Assembly (NCBI GenBank): GCA_030630935.1
Contig: DAOVMD010000162.1
Location: 1 to 6,962 of the forward strand
DNA: 6,962 nt
Direction of reading: 5' to 3'
Source of the DNA: Candidatus Mcinerneyibacteriota bacterium
Lineage (GTDB): Bacteria > AUK180 > JAQVHJ01
Shown here: positions 1,750 through 6,962 of the stretch, in pieces
Position numbering within the stretch: position 1 is the first letter of the stretch
How the letters are laid out: every line of letters begins with the position of its first letter
The notes under the pieces: model-generated
What the model was told of the DNA's origin: nothing
Database searches by the model: none
What the model saw: only the letters and a program-made list of their open reading frames with translations
Made by a program: the position numbers and the translations under genes

Positions 1750-1778
1750 AGTATAGCATATAATAATATAAAAGTCAA
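1750..1778 (-). promoter_or_regulatory. Sigma70-type promoter of the FecR-domain operon
   Basis: On the minus strand the -35 box TTGACT (1778-1773) and the -10 box TATACT (1755-1750) are separated by exactly 17 nt, each one base from consensus. Transcription would begin near 1743, giving a leader of about 26 nt that carries the ribosome binding site. Confidence 0.8.
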
Positions 1779-1943
1779 GTAAACTACAAGGGAAAATCGC
1801 TCTGTTCGATGTGTAATGAGAAGTAATAATGAACAATAACTCTTGAACATTTAAACTATCTCAATTCTTGCACACTTAAACATTTATCAACATTTTAACT
1901 ATTAAACTATCGTCACAGGTTTAACATTTGAACTCGTTTAACT

Positions 1944-1994
1944 CTTCAACTATTTATCTATCTCAACTCCCGCACATTTGAACACATGCAAAGC
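1944..1994 (+). repeat. 51-nt direct repeat, copy 1
   Basis: This 51-nt stretch runs from CTTCAACTATTTATC to CATGCAAAGCA and matches 2238-2288 at 50 of 51 positions (the only difference I see is T versus A in TTTATC/TTTAAC). Such identity 294 nt apart, in otherwise diverged phrase DNA, points to recent duplication or conversion. Confidence 0.9.
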
Positions 1995-1996
1995 AG

Positions 1997-2021
1997 GCTA
2001 AAGCAACTCTGTTGCTTTAGC
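1997..2021. repeat. Perfect 11-bp-arm hairpin with 3-nt loop
   Basis: The left arm GCTAAAGCAAC (1997-2007) and the right arm GTTGCTTTAGC (2011-2021) are exact reverse complements around TCT (AGA on the minus strand). No T-tract follows, so it does not look like an intrinsic terminator. It adjoins copy 1 of the 51-nt repeat on its left and a purine-rich tract on its right. Confidence 0.85.
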
Positions 2022-2186
2022 AGAGAGTAGAAAGTTGAGAACTGAGAACAGAAAAATAAAATTCTTTTGATCTCATAGGTACATTTGTACTGGAGCTTAA
2101 CTCCTTTTATTTAACACTTCAACTATTGAACTATCTTAACATCTGCACATTTAAACGTTTTATTAGCACTTAAACTATTGAACCAT

Positions 2187-2206
2187 AGACATGCCATGGC
2201 ATGTCT
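2187..2206. repeat. Perfect 20-bp palindrome centred on NcoI-like CCATGG
   Basis: AGACATGCCATGGCATGTCT reads identically on both strands. It sits alone between phrase repeats. It could be a protein-binding site or a mobile palindromic unit; nothing here distinguishes these. Confidence 0.85.
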
Positions 2207-2237
2207 CTACAATAACATTTAAACGTTTTTTTTAACA

Positions 2238-2288
2238 CTTCAACTATTTAACTATCTCAACTCCCGCACATTTGAACACATGCAAAGC
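2238..2288 (+). repeat. 51-nt direct repeat, copy 2
   Basis: This copy matches 1944-1994 at 50 of 51 positions. It ends in a complete small hairpin (CATGC AAA GCATG, 2279-2291), whereas copy 1 continues as GCAGG and so has a broken right arm. Confidence 0.9.
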
Positions 2289-2317
2289 ATGCCTTTATAA
2301 CACTTGAACTATTGAAC

Positions 2318-2332
2318 GCATGCGAAGCATGC
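2318..2332. repeat. GCATGC-GAA-GCATGC hairpin
   Basis: Two copies of the self-complementary hexamer GCATGC flank GAA. The centre, GCGAAGC, is the well-known extraordinarily stable DNA mini-hairpin sequence. Confidence 0.8.
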
Positions 2333-2358
2333 ATTAAACATTTGAACACTTAAACTAT

Positions 2359-2377
2359 CATGAACTTTCAGTTCATG
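2359..2377. repeat. 8-bp-arm inverted repeat just upstream of the promoter
   Basis: CATGAACT (2359-2366) and AGTTCATG (2370-2377) are exact reverse complements around TTC. The right arm ends 9 nt before the -35 box of the plus-strand operon, a plausible position for a regulator. It is followed by TTTTTC, so a weak terminator isolating the promoter from upstream reading is the alternative. Confidence 0.6.
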
Positions 2378-2386
2378 TTTTTCACC

Positions 2387-2415
2387 TTGACAAAATATTG
2401 AATTTTTAGTATAAT
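2387..2415 (+). promoter_or_regulatory. Perfect-consensus sigma70 promoter of the three-gene operon
   Basis: TTGACA (2387-2392) and TATAAT (2410-2415) are both exact consensus with the optimal 17-nt spacer. The expected start is near 2421-2423, giving a leader of about 20 nt that carries AAGGAG (2427-2432). Such a promoter should be strong unless repressed. Confidence 0.9.
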
Positions 2416-2442
2416 TCATACAAACCAAGGAGAATTCCTAAT

Positions 2443-3057
2443 ATGCATTGTGAACATTGTGGAGCCCCGGTTGAGATAAATGAAATTACCGGGATTGCAA
2501 AGTGTAAATATTGTGGAACTGTTTATGATCTTACAGGTGGAAAAGTTGATTTCAAGAATATTCTAAAACTACTTGAACAAATCAGGTATTACAGGAATAA
2601 AGGAATACTACCGGAATCAAAAGTAAAAATTGTTAATGGCCGGATTATAGATAGTGATGAATTTATCCAGGACGGAAAACCTCCATATTCCTGTATGAAA
2701 TGTCAAAGAAAATTCAATCTGGATAAAATAGTCAGGCACATGTTTTCCAGTCACCAGGAATTATGCGACTCGAAAGATATTATACCGTACTTAAGAAATC
2801 ATCCTGAACTAATATTTTATCTGGAAGTATTTATCCAGGAATTGGAGCAGCGTGAAACAGATAAACATGAGCTTGAAAAGCGGTTGGAAGAAAAAGAAAA
2901 AGGAACCGTATCATCAGATAAATCTTTAGGAAAATATTTTTTTAACTATGCCGTAAATACTATCTCACAACTCCTCTTTAAGATATTTTTATTCTTGTTT
3001 GCATTTGCTGTAATTGCAGGAGTGTTAATTTATTTGATTCATTATTTCACAAAGTAA
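2443..3057 (+). CDS. Tail-anchored zinc-ribbon/C2H2 zinc-finger protein
   Basis: This 204-residue protein has two apparent metal sites. The first is an N-terminal zinc ribbon with C3-x2-C6 and C21-x2-C24 (CEHCG, CKYCG). The second is a C2H2-like finger with C84-x2-C87-x11-H99-x4-H104. Residues about 128-155 are charged and likely helical or coiled-coil (ELEQRETDKHELEKRLEEKEK). Residues about 172-200 form a single strongly hydrophobic segment (LLFKIFLFLFAFAVIAGVLIYLIHYF) followed only by TK, so the protein is probably tail-anchored with its zinc domains in the cytoplasm. AAGGAG lies 10 nt before the ATG. It is the first gene after a consensus promoter, and the cyclase gene begins 11 nt after its stop. 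It may tether a partner, DNA or RNA to the membrane; no named family is recognised. Confidence 0.9.
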   Translation: MHCEHCGAPVEINEITGIAKCKYCGTVYDLTGGKVDFKNILKLLEQIRYYRNKGILPESKVKIVNGRIIDSDEFIQDGKPPYSCMKCQRKFNLDKIVRHMFSSHQELCDSKDIIPYLRNHPELIFYLEVFIQELEQRETDKHELEKRLEEKEKGTVSSDKSLGKYFFNYAVNTISQLLFKIFLFLFAFAVIAGVLIYLIHYFTK

Positions 3058-3062
3058 AGGAG
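3056..3062 (+). promoter_or_regulatory. Ribosome binding site that supports a TTG start
   Basis: AAAGGAG overlaps the TAA stop of the upstream gene and lies 6 nt before TTG at 3069. The first ATG in frame (3078) would have AAAGGA directly against it, too close to work, so TTG is the better start. Confidence 0.75.
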
Positions 3063-3068
3063 TTTATT

Positions 3069-4571
3069 TTGAAAGGAATGTTCAAAACAATATTTAACTC
3101 TGTTCACATGAGCATTGTTGTAGTAGATAAAAAATTTATTATTCATCAATGGAATAAAGAGACAGAATCAATGTATGGAATCACATCAAAGCAAGTTTTG
3201 GGAAAGAACCTGGTTGATTTATTCCCGGATTTAAAAAGAATCAAGCTGGATAATTATATAAAATCAGTTTTTGAAACCGGTAAAAAGTGTGAGATCAAGG
3301 AGAAATTTCGAAAAACACTATTAAGGGGAGATCTCTATATAGATTATTTTATCTCTCCTATCATGGTTGATAATAAGATTAAATATGTTTCAGTTGCTTC
3401 AAAGGAAGTAACTGAAAGGGTTCGCCTGCGTCATAATTTACAGGAGAAAAATGAAAGGTTAAATATTCTTTATGATATCGCAAAGACCCTCTTCTCTACA
3501 TTGAATCTTGAAGAGGTGCTGTTCTTGATTCTGACTGGTATTACTAATCCTAAGATGGAAGGATTTAATAGAGCGGCACTGTTTCAATTGGATAAAACTT
3601 CCCAGGGTCGAATATTCACCGGGATTATGGGTGTGGGAAAAAAGTCCGGGAATGAAGCACATAAGCTCTGGAAAAAATTATTAAATAATCCCAGGTATTT
3701 TGAGAAATTCTCTATTGCTTACAATAATTTCATGGAGAATCAAAATCCAACGTTCAACAGCTTTGTTCAAGGTCTTGGTTTTTTTCAAAAAGACCTTAAA
3801 AGGAACTCAAGATTACGGGGAATTACTTATTTTAAAGTCGGGAGAAAGAAAAATAAACCTCCAAAAATTTTATTGGATTTCTTTAATATTAAAGAGTTTG
3901 TTTTAGTTCCAATCTATATAGAGAAGGAATTATTCGGGATAATATATGTTGATAATTACAAATCGAAAAGGGAATTTGATAAATCGGATATTGAATTTCT
4001 TGAACTCAGTACAAACCTTGCAAGCATGGCAATTCAACTATCAAAGAAATACGAAGAGACCTATGAATCAACAATCAGAGATTCCCTGACAAAACTATTT
4101 AATCATAGAAGATTTTATTCAATTTTAAAAGAACAAACGACATTAGCAAAGGAAAGTAAAGGAAAATTAGCAATTGTAATGCTTGACTTGGATTATTTTA
4201 AAAAATATAACGATACATTTGGACATATTGAAGGGGATCAGGTACTAAGAGATGTATCGTCTATTATCCTCAGTAAAGTCAGGAATATCGATTTTGCTGC
4301 ACGATACGGCGGAGAGGAGTTTGCTCTGATCCTGCCAAGTGTCGATAAAGATGAAGCCATGAATATTGCTGAGAGAATTCGAGAAGCAGTTCAGGAACAT
4401 GAATTCAAGAAGTCAAAAGAAATTACATGGGGTCGGGTTACAATCAGCGGGGGAATCGCAACTTATCCGGAGGATTCAAAGAAGTTTATTGAGCTGGTAA
4501 AAATAGCTGACGAAATGCTATATAAAGCAAAATCCAAAGGTAGAAATAAAATACTGACAACTAAAAAATAA
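3069..4571 (+). CDS. PAS-GAF-GGDEF diguanylate cyclase
   Basis: This 500-residue protein probably makes cyclic di-GMP from two GTP. Domains in order: PAS, about 5-117 (HQWNKETESMYG at 26-37, then a LGKNLVDLFP turn); a helical linker; GAF, about 130-326, with a long insertion between G190 and the conserved FVLVPI strand at 277; and GGDEF, about 333-497. The catalytic domain looks intact: D338-SLTKLFNHRRF, metal-binding DLDYFKKYND (373-382), GGEEF (414-418), and YKAKSKGRN near the end. An inhibitory RxxD site (RNID, 405-408) lies five residues before GGEEF, so product inhibition is expected. No membrane segment is seen, so it is cytosolic, though it may be recruited by the tail-anchored neighbour. 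It starts at TTG behind AAAGGAG. The signals sensed by PAS and GAF cannot be read from the sequence. Confidence 0.95.
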   Translation: MKGMFKTIFNSVHMSIVVVDKKFIIHQWNKETESMYGITSKQVLGKNLVDLFPDLKRIKLDNYIKSVFETGKKCEIKEKFRKTLLRGDLYIDYFISPIMVDNKIKYVSVASKEVTERVRLRHNLQEKNERLNILYDIAKTLFSTLNLEEVLFLILTGITNPKMEGFNRAALFQLDKTSQGRIFTGIMGVGKKSGNEAHKLWKKLLNNPRYFEKFSIAYNNFMENQNPTFNSFVQGLGFFQKDLKRNSRLRGITYFKVGRKKNKPPKILLDFFNIKEFVLVPIYIEKELFGIIYVDNYKSKREFDKSDIEFLELSTNLASMAIQLSKKYEETYESTIRDSLTKLFNHRRFYSILKEQTTLAKESKGKLAIVMLDLDYFKKYNDTFGHIEGDQVLRDVSSIILSKVRNIDFAARYGGEEFALILPSVDKDEAMNIAERIREAVQEHEFKKSKEITWGRVTISGGIATYPEDSKKFIELVKIADEMLYKAKSKGRNKILTTKK

Positions 4572-4579
4572 AATTTGCT

Positions 4580-5110
4580 ATGCCTGATAATTTTGAAATT
4601 TTCTTCAGTAAAAGTTTATATGAAAAAGTCTTTGAAGAAATAATTCCAAACGCTAAGAAGTTTCTCTGGATTGCAACTGCAAATCTAAAGAACCTTCATA
4701 TTAATCGTGGGAGAAAATTCAGACCATTTCTTGAATTGATTCATGAAAAAATAACAGAACATGTAAACGTTCGGATTCTTCATTCATCAAAACCATCAAA
4801 GAGTTTCAGGGAAGAATTAAAATTATTTAATGATGATATTGATTATGGACTTGAACTATTCTGCTGCCCGAGAAATCATATGAAAATCGTTCTTGCAGAT
4901 AATGAAATTATGTATCTTGGAAGTGGAAATATAACCGGAGCGGGACTGGGTTTAAAAAGTGACACTAAACGAAATTTTGAGGTTGGTTTAATAACTGAAG
5001 ATCCTAAAATAATTAAACAGGTTGCAGAATATTTTGATGAGATTTGGATGGGTAAATTCTGCTCAAAATGCAAACGAAAAGATATTTGCCCTGCACCGAT
5101 AATAGAGTAA
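4580..5110 (+). CDS. Phospholipase D-like protein with one HKD motif
   Basis: This 176-residue protein has one HKD motif: H100-M-K102 with D107, followed by G114-S-G-N117, as in the phospholipase D superfamily (HxKx4Dx6GSxN). Proteins with a single motif, such as the Nuc endonuclease and BfiI, form the active site between two subunits, so a homodimeric phosphodiesterase or nuclease is likely. The N-terminal part (FLWIATANLKN) resembles the usual first core strand. There is no signal peptide or membrane segment, which argues for a cytosolic nucleic-acid substrate over a secreted lipase. The C-terminus adds C161-x2-C164-x5-C170, possibly a metal site together with C95 or C96. The ATG lies 8 nt after the cyclase stop with no clear Shine-Dalgarno site, so translation is probably coupled. 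Confidence 0.88.
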   Translation: MPDNFEIFFSKSLYEKVFEEIIPNAKKFLWIATANLKNLHINRGRKFRPFLELIHEKITEHVNVRILHSSKPSKSFREELKLFNDDIDYGLELFCCPRNHMKIVLADNEIMYLGSGNITGAGLGLKSDTKRNFEVGLITEDPKIIKQVAEYFDEIWMGKFCSKCKRKDICPAPIIE

Positions 5111-5663: not shown

Positions 5664-5864
5664 TTACCCGCCTGAGATCAAATGGATTACATCTACCTTT
5701 GAATTATTTTTAATGATAAATTTCGAGTATTCATTTTTCTTGATGAGTTTACCATTAGCTTTTACAACTATCATTGGGAATGTAAAATGCATCCGTTTCA
5801 GTAGTAATTTTATCGTTTCATTTTCAATGAAATCTACTTCTTTATTATTAACTGTGATTGGCAT
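5664..5864 (-). CDS. ThiS/MoaD-family sulfur carrier protein
   Basis: This 66-residue protein has the size and ending of a ubiquitin-like sulfur carrier: an opening strand MPITVNNKEVDF, a central PMIVVKANGKLI, and a VDVIHLISGG tail. The terminal Gly-Gly would be adenylated by the adjacent ThiF-like protein and converted to a thiocarboxylate. Beside an AOR gene, the likely sulfur acceptor is the pterin precursor of the tungsten/molybdenum cofactor, as for MoaD; thiamine synthesis is the alternative but no other thi gene is visible. An ATG at 5873 would add MET in front. I prefer 5864 because the family usually starts directly with the first strand and GGATGG lies just upstream. It overlaps the end of the ThiF-like gene by 17 nt (26 nt with the longer start), so coupled translation is likely. 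Confidence 0.9.
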   Translation of the reverse strand: MPITVNNKEVDFIENETIKLLLKRMHFTFPMIVVKANGKLIKKNEYSKFIIKNNSKVDVIHLISGG

Positions 5865-6465
5865 CGTTTCCATCCAAAATAATCTTTATTGCAATATCTG
5901 CTTCCCAGTTAGCCATAATACTGACTCTTGGAGCGAGTAGAAGCCCTTCATCACTAGAAGGAGCTTCGGGATTGTACACAATATAAAGATTTCCAAGTTG
6001 CTTTGTAAATATCGTATCTGAATTCCCATAACCAGCAGCTCCGGAAGCGGCAATCAGGGGAATATGGTGCAGGATTGAATGAACTTCTTCAATGAACTGA
6101 GCTTTTATCTCAGCAGTATCAAGTGCTTCAATTACAATATCTGCATTCTTAAAGAGATCTGACATCGAACCAGGTTCCAGTTTTATTTTATGAAGCTCAA
6201 GATTTATCTCCGGGTTAATTCGGAGAAGGTTTTCCTGAAGTGCTTCGGTCTTGAATTTACCAACCTGATCCTGAAAGTAATATTGTCTATTGAGATTTGT
6301 TTTTTCAATTTTATCAAAATCAACTAAAATTAATTTCCCGATGCCAACACGAGTAAGGGAGGCTGCGGAGTTAGACCCCAATCCGCCCAAACCTGCAATC
6401 CCGATGCATGCAAGTTTTAACTTTTCTTTTATATTATCCGGATAATTAGTCTCAAGGTTCACCAT
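5848..6465 (-). CDS. Short ThiF-family sulfur-carrier adenylyltransferase
   Basis: This 205-residue protein belongs to the ThiF/MoeB/HesA (E1-like) superfamily, closest in build to the short ThiF subfamily of about 200 residues, against about 250 for MoeB. Visible elements: ATP-binding loop G25-L-G27-G28-L-G30-SN; acidic strand end VDFD (48-51); NLNRQYYF (57-64) with the conserved arginine; K70-x-K72; NPE at 84-86; and D116 in IEALDTAE. It would adenylate the C-terminal glycine of the ThiS-like protein next door. It has a single cysteine (C20, before the loop), so it lacks both the zinc-binding CxxC pairs of MoeB and the catalytic cysteine of E. coli ThiF. The start overlaps the AOR stop by 7 nt, with GGGAG close upstream. 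The function as carrier activator is well supported; the pathway is inferred from neighbours. Confidence 0.92.
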   Translation of the reverse strand: MVNLETNYPDNIKEKLKLACIGIAGLGGLGSNSAASLTRVGIGKLILVDFDKIEKTNLNRQYYFQDQVGKFKTEALQENLLRINPEINLELHKIKLEPGSMSDLFKNADIVIEALDTAEIKAQFIEEVHSILHHIPLIAASGAAGYGNSDTIFTKQLGNLYIVYNPEAPSSDEGLLLAPRVSIMANWEADIAIKIILDGNDANHS

Positions 6466-6962
6466 TTCTCCCAGTATTTAGGGTCATCAGATGGAGGTTT
6501 ATCTTCACCTGTATATTTACCGATCCAAATATTAAATCCTGCTTTTTCGTCTTGATCAATTTTTTCCTGGAGCATTTTCAGCATATCTTTATTATCACCA
6601 AAACCAAGTGCTTTCATTTTCTGTGGAGTTGGAACACCGTTCTGAGTCCAACCGCGTCGGTGATAAACTGCATCTGCAAGTTTCTGGTATTGATTCTGCC
6701 TGTGGTCATATAATAATTTCATCTTTTCTTCAATTGGCATCTTCTCAACTTCTTCCAGGTCTTTATTTAAAATTTCTGAAAGCTGCTTATTATAACGGTC
6801 TTGTCTTGAGATATATTCCATCTCAGTTACAGGTCCCATTGACCGGTAAGGTATCCAATCATCTTTTCTTCGGCCTCGGCCCAGCCAAACAGCCATTGCT
6901 CTCTGCCAGTTATAACATCTCTCGCTCTGGAGAATTAATTCTTCCTTATCAATTCCCCAACC
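6459..6962 (-). CDS. Aldehyde ferredoxin oxidoreductase, C-terminal part (5' end beyond window)
   Basis: The frame is open from the right edge, giving the last 167 residues; the ATG at 6896 is internal because coding continues upstream through GWGIDKEELILQSERCYNWQRA. The sequence matches the C-terminal domain of the AOR family: a helix with NWQRAMAVWLGRGRRKDDWIPYR, a DRYNKQLSEIL segment, and the hallmark DAVYHRRGWTQNGVPTPQKMKALG. Known members oxidise aldehydes to carboxylic acids with a tungsto-bispterin and a 4Fe-4S cluster, passing electrons to ferredoxin; those binding residues lie in the missing part, so substrate and metal cannot be judged. A polar tail of about 45 residues (NKDMLKMLQEK to PKYWEKW) follows the hallmark. 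The overlapping ThiF- and ThiS-like genes downstream support a pterin-cofactor enzyme. Confidence 0.88.
   Translation of the reverse strand, partial: GWGIDKEELILQSERCYNWQRAMAVWLGRGRRKDDWIPYRSMGPVTEMEYISRQDRYNKQLSEILNKDLEEVEKMPIEEKMKLLYDHRQNQYQKLADAVYHRRGWTQNGVPTPQKMKALGFGDNKDMLKMLQEKIDQDEKAGFNIWIGKYTGEDKPPSDDPKYWEKW

Follow-up and report, generated by a model that had tools for sequence, protein, structure and literature searches.

An apparently lineage-specific operon encoding a membrane-tethered zinc-finger protein, a standard diguanylate cyclase and a probable HKD nuclease with four conserved cysteines

We analyzed a window of 6962 bases, which is the whole of its contig, and in which three genes follow a promoter on the forward strand:

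2387–2415, + strand: sigma-70-type promoter, TTGACA-17-TATAAT (12/12 match to the consensus)
2443–3057, + strand: zinc-finger protein gene, 204 aa
3069–4571, + strand: PAS-GAF-GGDEF cyclase gene, 500 aa (TTG start, AAAGGAG upstream)
4580–5110, + strand: HKD protein gene, 176 aa

The intergenic gaps are 11 nt between the first and second genes and 8 nt between the second and third. The open reading frames and the promoter match bear out the coordinates, the gaps, and the perfect promoter claimed in a preliminary description of this DNA, and its domain calls (a membrane-anchored metal finger, PAS-GAF-GGDEF, and HKD) were recovered with motifs and Pfam, the finger through sub-cut-off matches. Because exact TTGACA-17-TATAAT occurs 163 times in the 3.16-Mb draft genome, versus once for the reversed control, the promoter is genuine, yet commonplace, and the same count rules it out as a mark of something special. 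For an uncultured lineage, these 163 perfect promoters also make a very clean sigma-70 signal.

Our comparison of the trio rests on one other genome of the same bacterial family, from a second genus (G001, contig JAQVHJ010000137.1), in which the three genes recur in unchanged order. Protein identity between the window and G001 is 66% for the cyclase, 61% for the HKD protein, and 50–51% for the zinc-finger protein (over the part from residue 47 on, which is all that the G001 contig contains). A FecR gene and a porin-like gene lie near the trio in both genomes; relative to them, the three genes have been inverted together, and the G001 contig has no counterpart of the ThiF and AOR genes found after the trio in the window. 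Because their order recurs in G001 despite this inversion, the three genes have been kept together, and they look like one transcription unit preserved intact through an inversion in the second genus. Anatomy and conservation both support co-expression of the trio well, and together they indicate that the operon is real and lineage-specific. That three unrelated genes came under one promoter by chance, and have stayed unseparated since the family ancestor, would fit several observations: the trio is known from two genomes only, the HKD gene has varied neighbors elsewhere (see below), and the FecR and porin-like genes also stay near in both genomes, so that local linkage persists without an evident common role. 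We nevertheless regard chance sharing as somewhat unlikely, given that the trio has remained whole, with its proteins 50 to 66% identical between the two genomes, despite rearrangement on either side.

Upstream of the promoter, the gap (window 1760–2390) is occupied by two repeats: a 62-nt degenerate direct repeat in four copies (63–95% to the reference) and, in seven copies, a 29-nt repeat. Genome-wide, a 21-nt repeat core was found 11 times, allowing up to two mismatches, and its reversed control 0 times; the repeats may have mediated the inversion of the trio. Downstream, on the − strand (window 5664–6896), ThiS-like, ThiF-like, and aldehyde ferredoxin oxidoreductase-like genes stand in a row, possibly as a tungsten-cofactor operon.

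The zinc-finger protein has cysteine pairs at residues 3/6 and 21/24 that form an N-terminal CxxC/CxxC zinc ribbon, a C2H2-like second finger (C84, C87, H99, H104), and a long helix followed by a hydrophobic C-terminal stretch (a membrane anchor) that begins near residue 178. All of its Pfam zinc-finger matches fall below the cut-off, and its fold, predicted from two sequences, has a pLDDT of 67. The second finger is conserved in G001, whose contig begins past the first. The protein would be membrane-tethered and perhaps acts as an adaptor. The cyclase comprises PAS, GAF, and GGDEF domains, with GGEEF at residue 414 and the I-site RxxD at 405; its GGDEF domain scores 160.9 bits against a cut-off of 23.8 and has the features of a diguanylate cyclase, and by its sequence the protein is a canonical PAS-GAF-GGDEF sensor diguanylate cyclase. 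In 60 genomes, a close relative of its sensor half was found only within the bacterial family that the window comes from. A match of the GGDEF domain to the Cas10/Cmr2 palm is sub-cut-off in Pfam and is expected from the shared fold.

The HKD protein matches PLDc_2 and carries the motif HxKx4Dx6GSxN at residues 100–117, in which H100, K102, D107, G114, S115, and N117 are invariant in all 63 HKD family sequences compared. Its AlphaFold model is a confident PLD fold (mean pLDDT = 86, pTM = 0.85), with confidence dropping in the C-terminal tail (block means 73 and 48), and motif and fold both place it in the PLD/HKD superfamily. A search of solved structures with the single sequence returned no reliable relative, and a profile search recovered PLD-family enzymes. 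The top Foldseek matches are to NucT, with Nuc close behind (VIA-align Z = 16.8 and 15.6, respectively); the nearest nucleases by fold are NucT, Nuc, and Zucchini, the FAM83 proteins are equally close, and they and the TrmB-type regulators come out near the top of the structure searches. The NCBIfam NucT model scores 25.9 bits on the HKD protein, below its cut-off of 211.

Nuclease activity is not assured, because the HKD superfamily also includes phospholipases and non-enzymatic members. Weak NCBIfam matches to cardiolipin synthase, together with the closeness of the FAM83 and phosphatidylserine synthase folds, would suit an enzyme acting on membrane lipids or a PLD-fold scaffold without catalytic activity; such a role is improbable, however, in view of the intact and invariant catalytic motif, the single-HKD size, the best matches to nucleases or nuclease-like proteins (NucT, Nuc, and DrmC), and the lack of a membrane segment in the HKD protein. 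Sequence and model instead indicate that the protein is probably a nuclease, most likely a homodimeric one of the NucT/Nuc type, in which two HKD motifs would form one active site and, as in the family, the catalytic histidine would form a phospho-enzyme intermediate.

The most distinctive feature of the HKD protein, which the preliminary description does not mention, is a set of four cysteines (C96, C161, C164, and C170). They are all present in 74 of the 75 distinct sequences of the HKD family and absent from four HKD proteins outside it that came from the same searches (L007, L008, L009, and the second protein in L120). C96 lies four residues ahead of the catalytic histidine, and the other three form CxxCx5C at the C-terminal end of the protein; both their number and their spacing are suitable for a metal-cysteine (Zn or Fe-S) protein. 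This pattern suggests a zinc or iron-sulfur site, and the HKD protein probably binds metal. The cysteines would most likely hold a zinc ion or an Fe-S cluster, pinning the C-terminal tail to the catalytic core.

A scan of genome contigs with the HKD alignment yielded 63 loci including G001, and therefore 62 others, mostly from Myxococcota and also from Desulfomonile, Planctomycetota, Zixibacteria, Sabulitectum, and others; a family member was present in 20 of 386 sampled genomes (E 1e-15). We found no Pfam or NCBIfam model specific to the family: all 45 members scanned match PLDc_2 and, weakly, DrmC, and DpdK is a weaker NCBIfam match in 24 members. Literature searches on HKD proteins with metal sites and on c-di-GMP with HKD proteins found nothing on this family, and a search on DpdK also found nothing. 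The HKD protein belongs to a widespread single-HKD subfamily without a curated name, present in Myxococcota, Bacteroidota, Planctomycetota, and many uncultured groups. The operon matters less than this family, being the arrangement of one lineage.

At the 62 other HKD loci (flanks up to 8 kb), we found no GGDEF gene and nothing related to the zinc-finger protein, only G001 having both, and 16 further regions around HKD genes, at least two of which resample contigs of the 63-locus scan, likewise contained neither. As a positive control, the GGDEF query recovered 8/8 GGDEF loci. In L014/L065, the weak PAS/GAF match (E 2e-4) that lies some 5 kb upstream of the HKD gene does not represent a GGDEF gene. 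The preliminary description had suggested that the trio is one functional unit, which holds for a single transcription unit, by anatomy and by the order kept in G001, and finds no support as a general system; its hypothesis that c-di-GMP controls the HKD nuclease is likewise not supported as a general system, with no GGDEF neighbor found at the loci outside this bacterial family.

The neighbors of the HKD gene differ among genomes and point to no clear pathway. In five loci of one uncultured lineage (L054, L055, L058, L059, and L071), the HKD gene lies between TatD-like and metallophosphoesterase-like genes, with a small conserved protein upstream, a setting whose TatD-like and metallophosphoesterase neighbors fit work on nucleic acids. 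In Sabulitectum, the gene of a zinc-ribbon-bearing membrane protein overlaps the HKD gene by 4 nt. The names TatD-like, metallophosphoesterase-like, and zinc-ribbon in these uncultured lineages were assigned by reading the sequences. The only plasmid match of the HKD protein is in Segatella: on a Segatella hominis plasmid (L088, 4935–9934), a four-cysteine HKD homologue is followed by an annotated metallophosphoesterase, which likewise fits work on nucleic acids, and then by an ATP-binding protein and an S8 peptidase, in what we would call a defense-like setting. In the window, no recognizable defense island, a possibility raised by the earlier account, was found. PADLOC matches of the HKD protein are mostly weak DrmC-type HKD similarity, that of the cyclase is a weak Cas10 palm similarity, and we rejected a defense system on that basis; a phage origin was also rejected, since phages gave no match and the PHROGs matches were only weak.

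A c-di-GMP-controlled nuclease system might still operate within the lineage, in which the cyclase would produce c-di-GMP in response to a signal, and this would activate, or release, an HKD nuclease that the zinc-finger protein keeps at the membrane. The tight operon retained through inversion in a second genus, the intact GGEEF and I-site of the cyclase, and the C-terminal anchor of the zinc-finger protein are all consistent with such a system. We judge it quite improbable, however, since the HKD family has no cyclase neighbor in any of the other loci examined, neither Pfam nor NCBIfam recovered a known c-di-GMP-binding domain in the HKD protein, and the genome has about 11 GGDEF matches (the trio cyclase among them), 2 EAL matches, and 2 PilZ matches, so that these proteins would have the messenger pool in common. 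Regulation of the HKD protein by c-di-GMP is possible, but unsupported. The best explanation, which we consider reasonably likely, is a lineage-specific co-expression operon with a probable NucT/Nuc-like HKD nuclease bearing metal-binding cysteines, a standard cyclase, and a membrane-tethered zinc finger. Such an operon would co-express three proteins, and the gene of the HKD nuclease would be the noteworthy one.

Compared with known PAS-GAF-GGDEF diguanylate cyclases, the cyclase is alike in all domains and in its catalytic and I-site residues, and differs in nothing essential. DrmC of DISARM (NF038319) is the best NCBIfam match of the HKD family in 45/45 members scanned, but the HKD protein is far below its cut-off (41.6 versus 133 bits), and no DISARM helicase or methylase gene lies beside the HKD gene in the window. 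With NucT and Nuc, the HKD protein has its fold, size, and HxKx4Dx6GSxN motif in common, at 16–18% identity, whereas its family adds the four conserved cysteines and the C-terminal CxxCx5C tail. NucT is a dimeric, cation-independent endonuclease that prefers single strands, and it is periplasmic and membrane-associated (PMC5714352), whereas no hydrophobic segment was found in the sequence of the HKD protein.

In arrangement, the cysteines of the putative site in the HKD family resemble those of Cas4/AddB, with one upstream and three C-terminal, and the spacing in Cas4 is CxxCx5C. The nuclease folds are, however, unrelated (RecB-like versus HKD), and the likeness is a lead, not proof. In Cas4/AddB, the one upstream and three C-terminal cysteines bind a 4Fe-4S cluster, by which the fold is stapled (PMC3466216). 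It is a long shot that the HKD proteins form a widespread nuclease family with an Fe-S or zinc staple beside the catalytic histidine, evolved independently of Cas4/AddB and wired here to a cyclase making c-di-GMP and to a zinc-finger adaptor in the membrane. If the cysteines do bind metal, the family would bring a metal staple into a class of enzymes known to work without metal.
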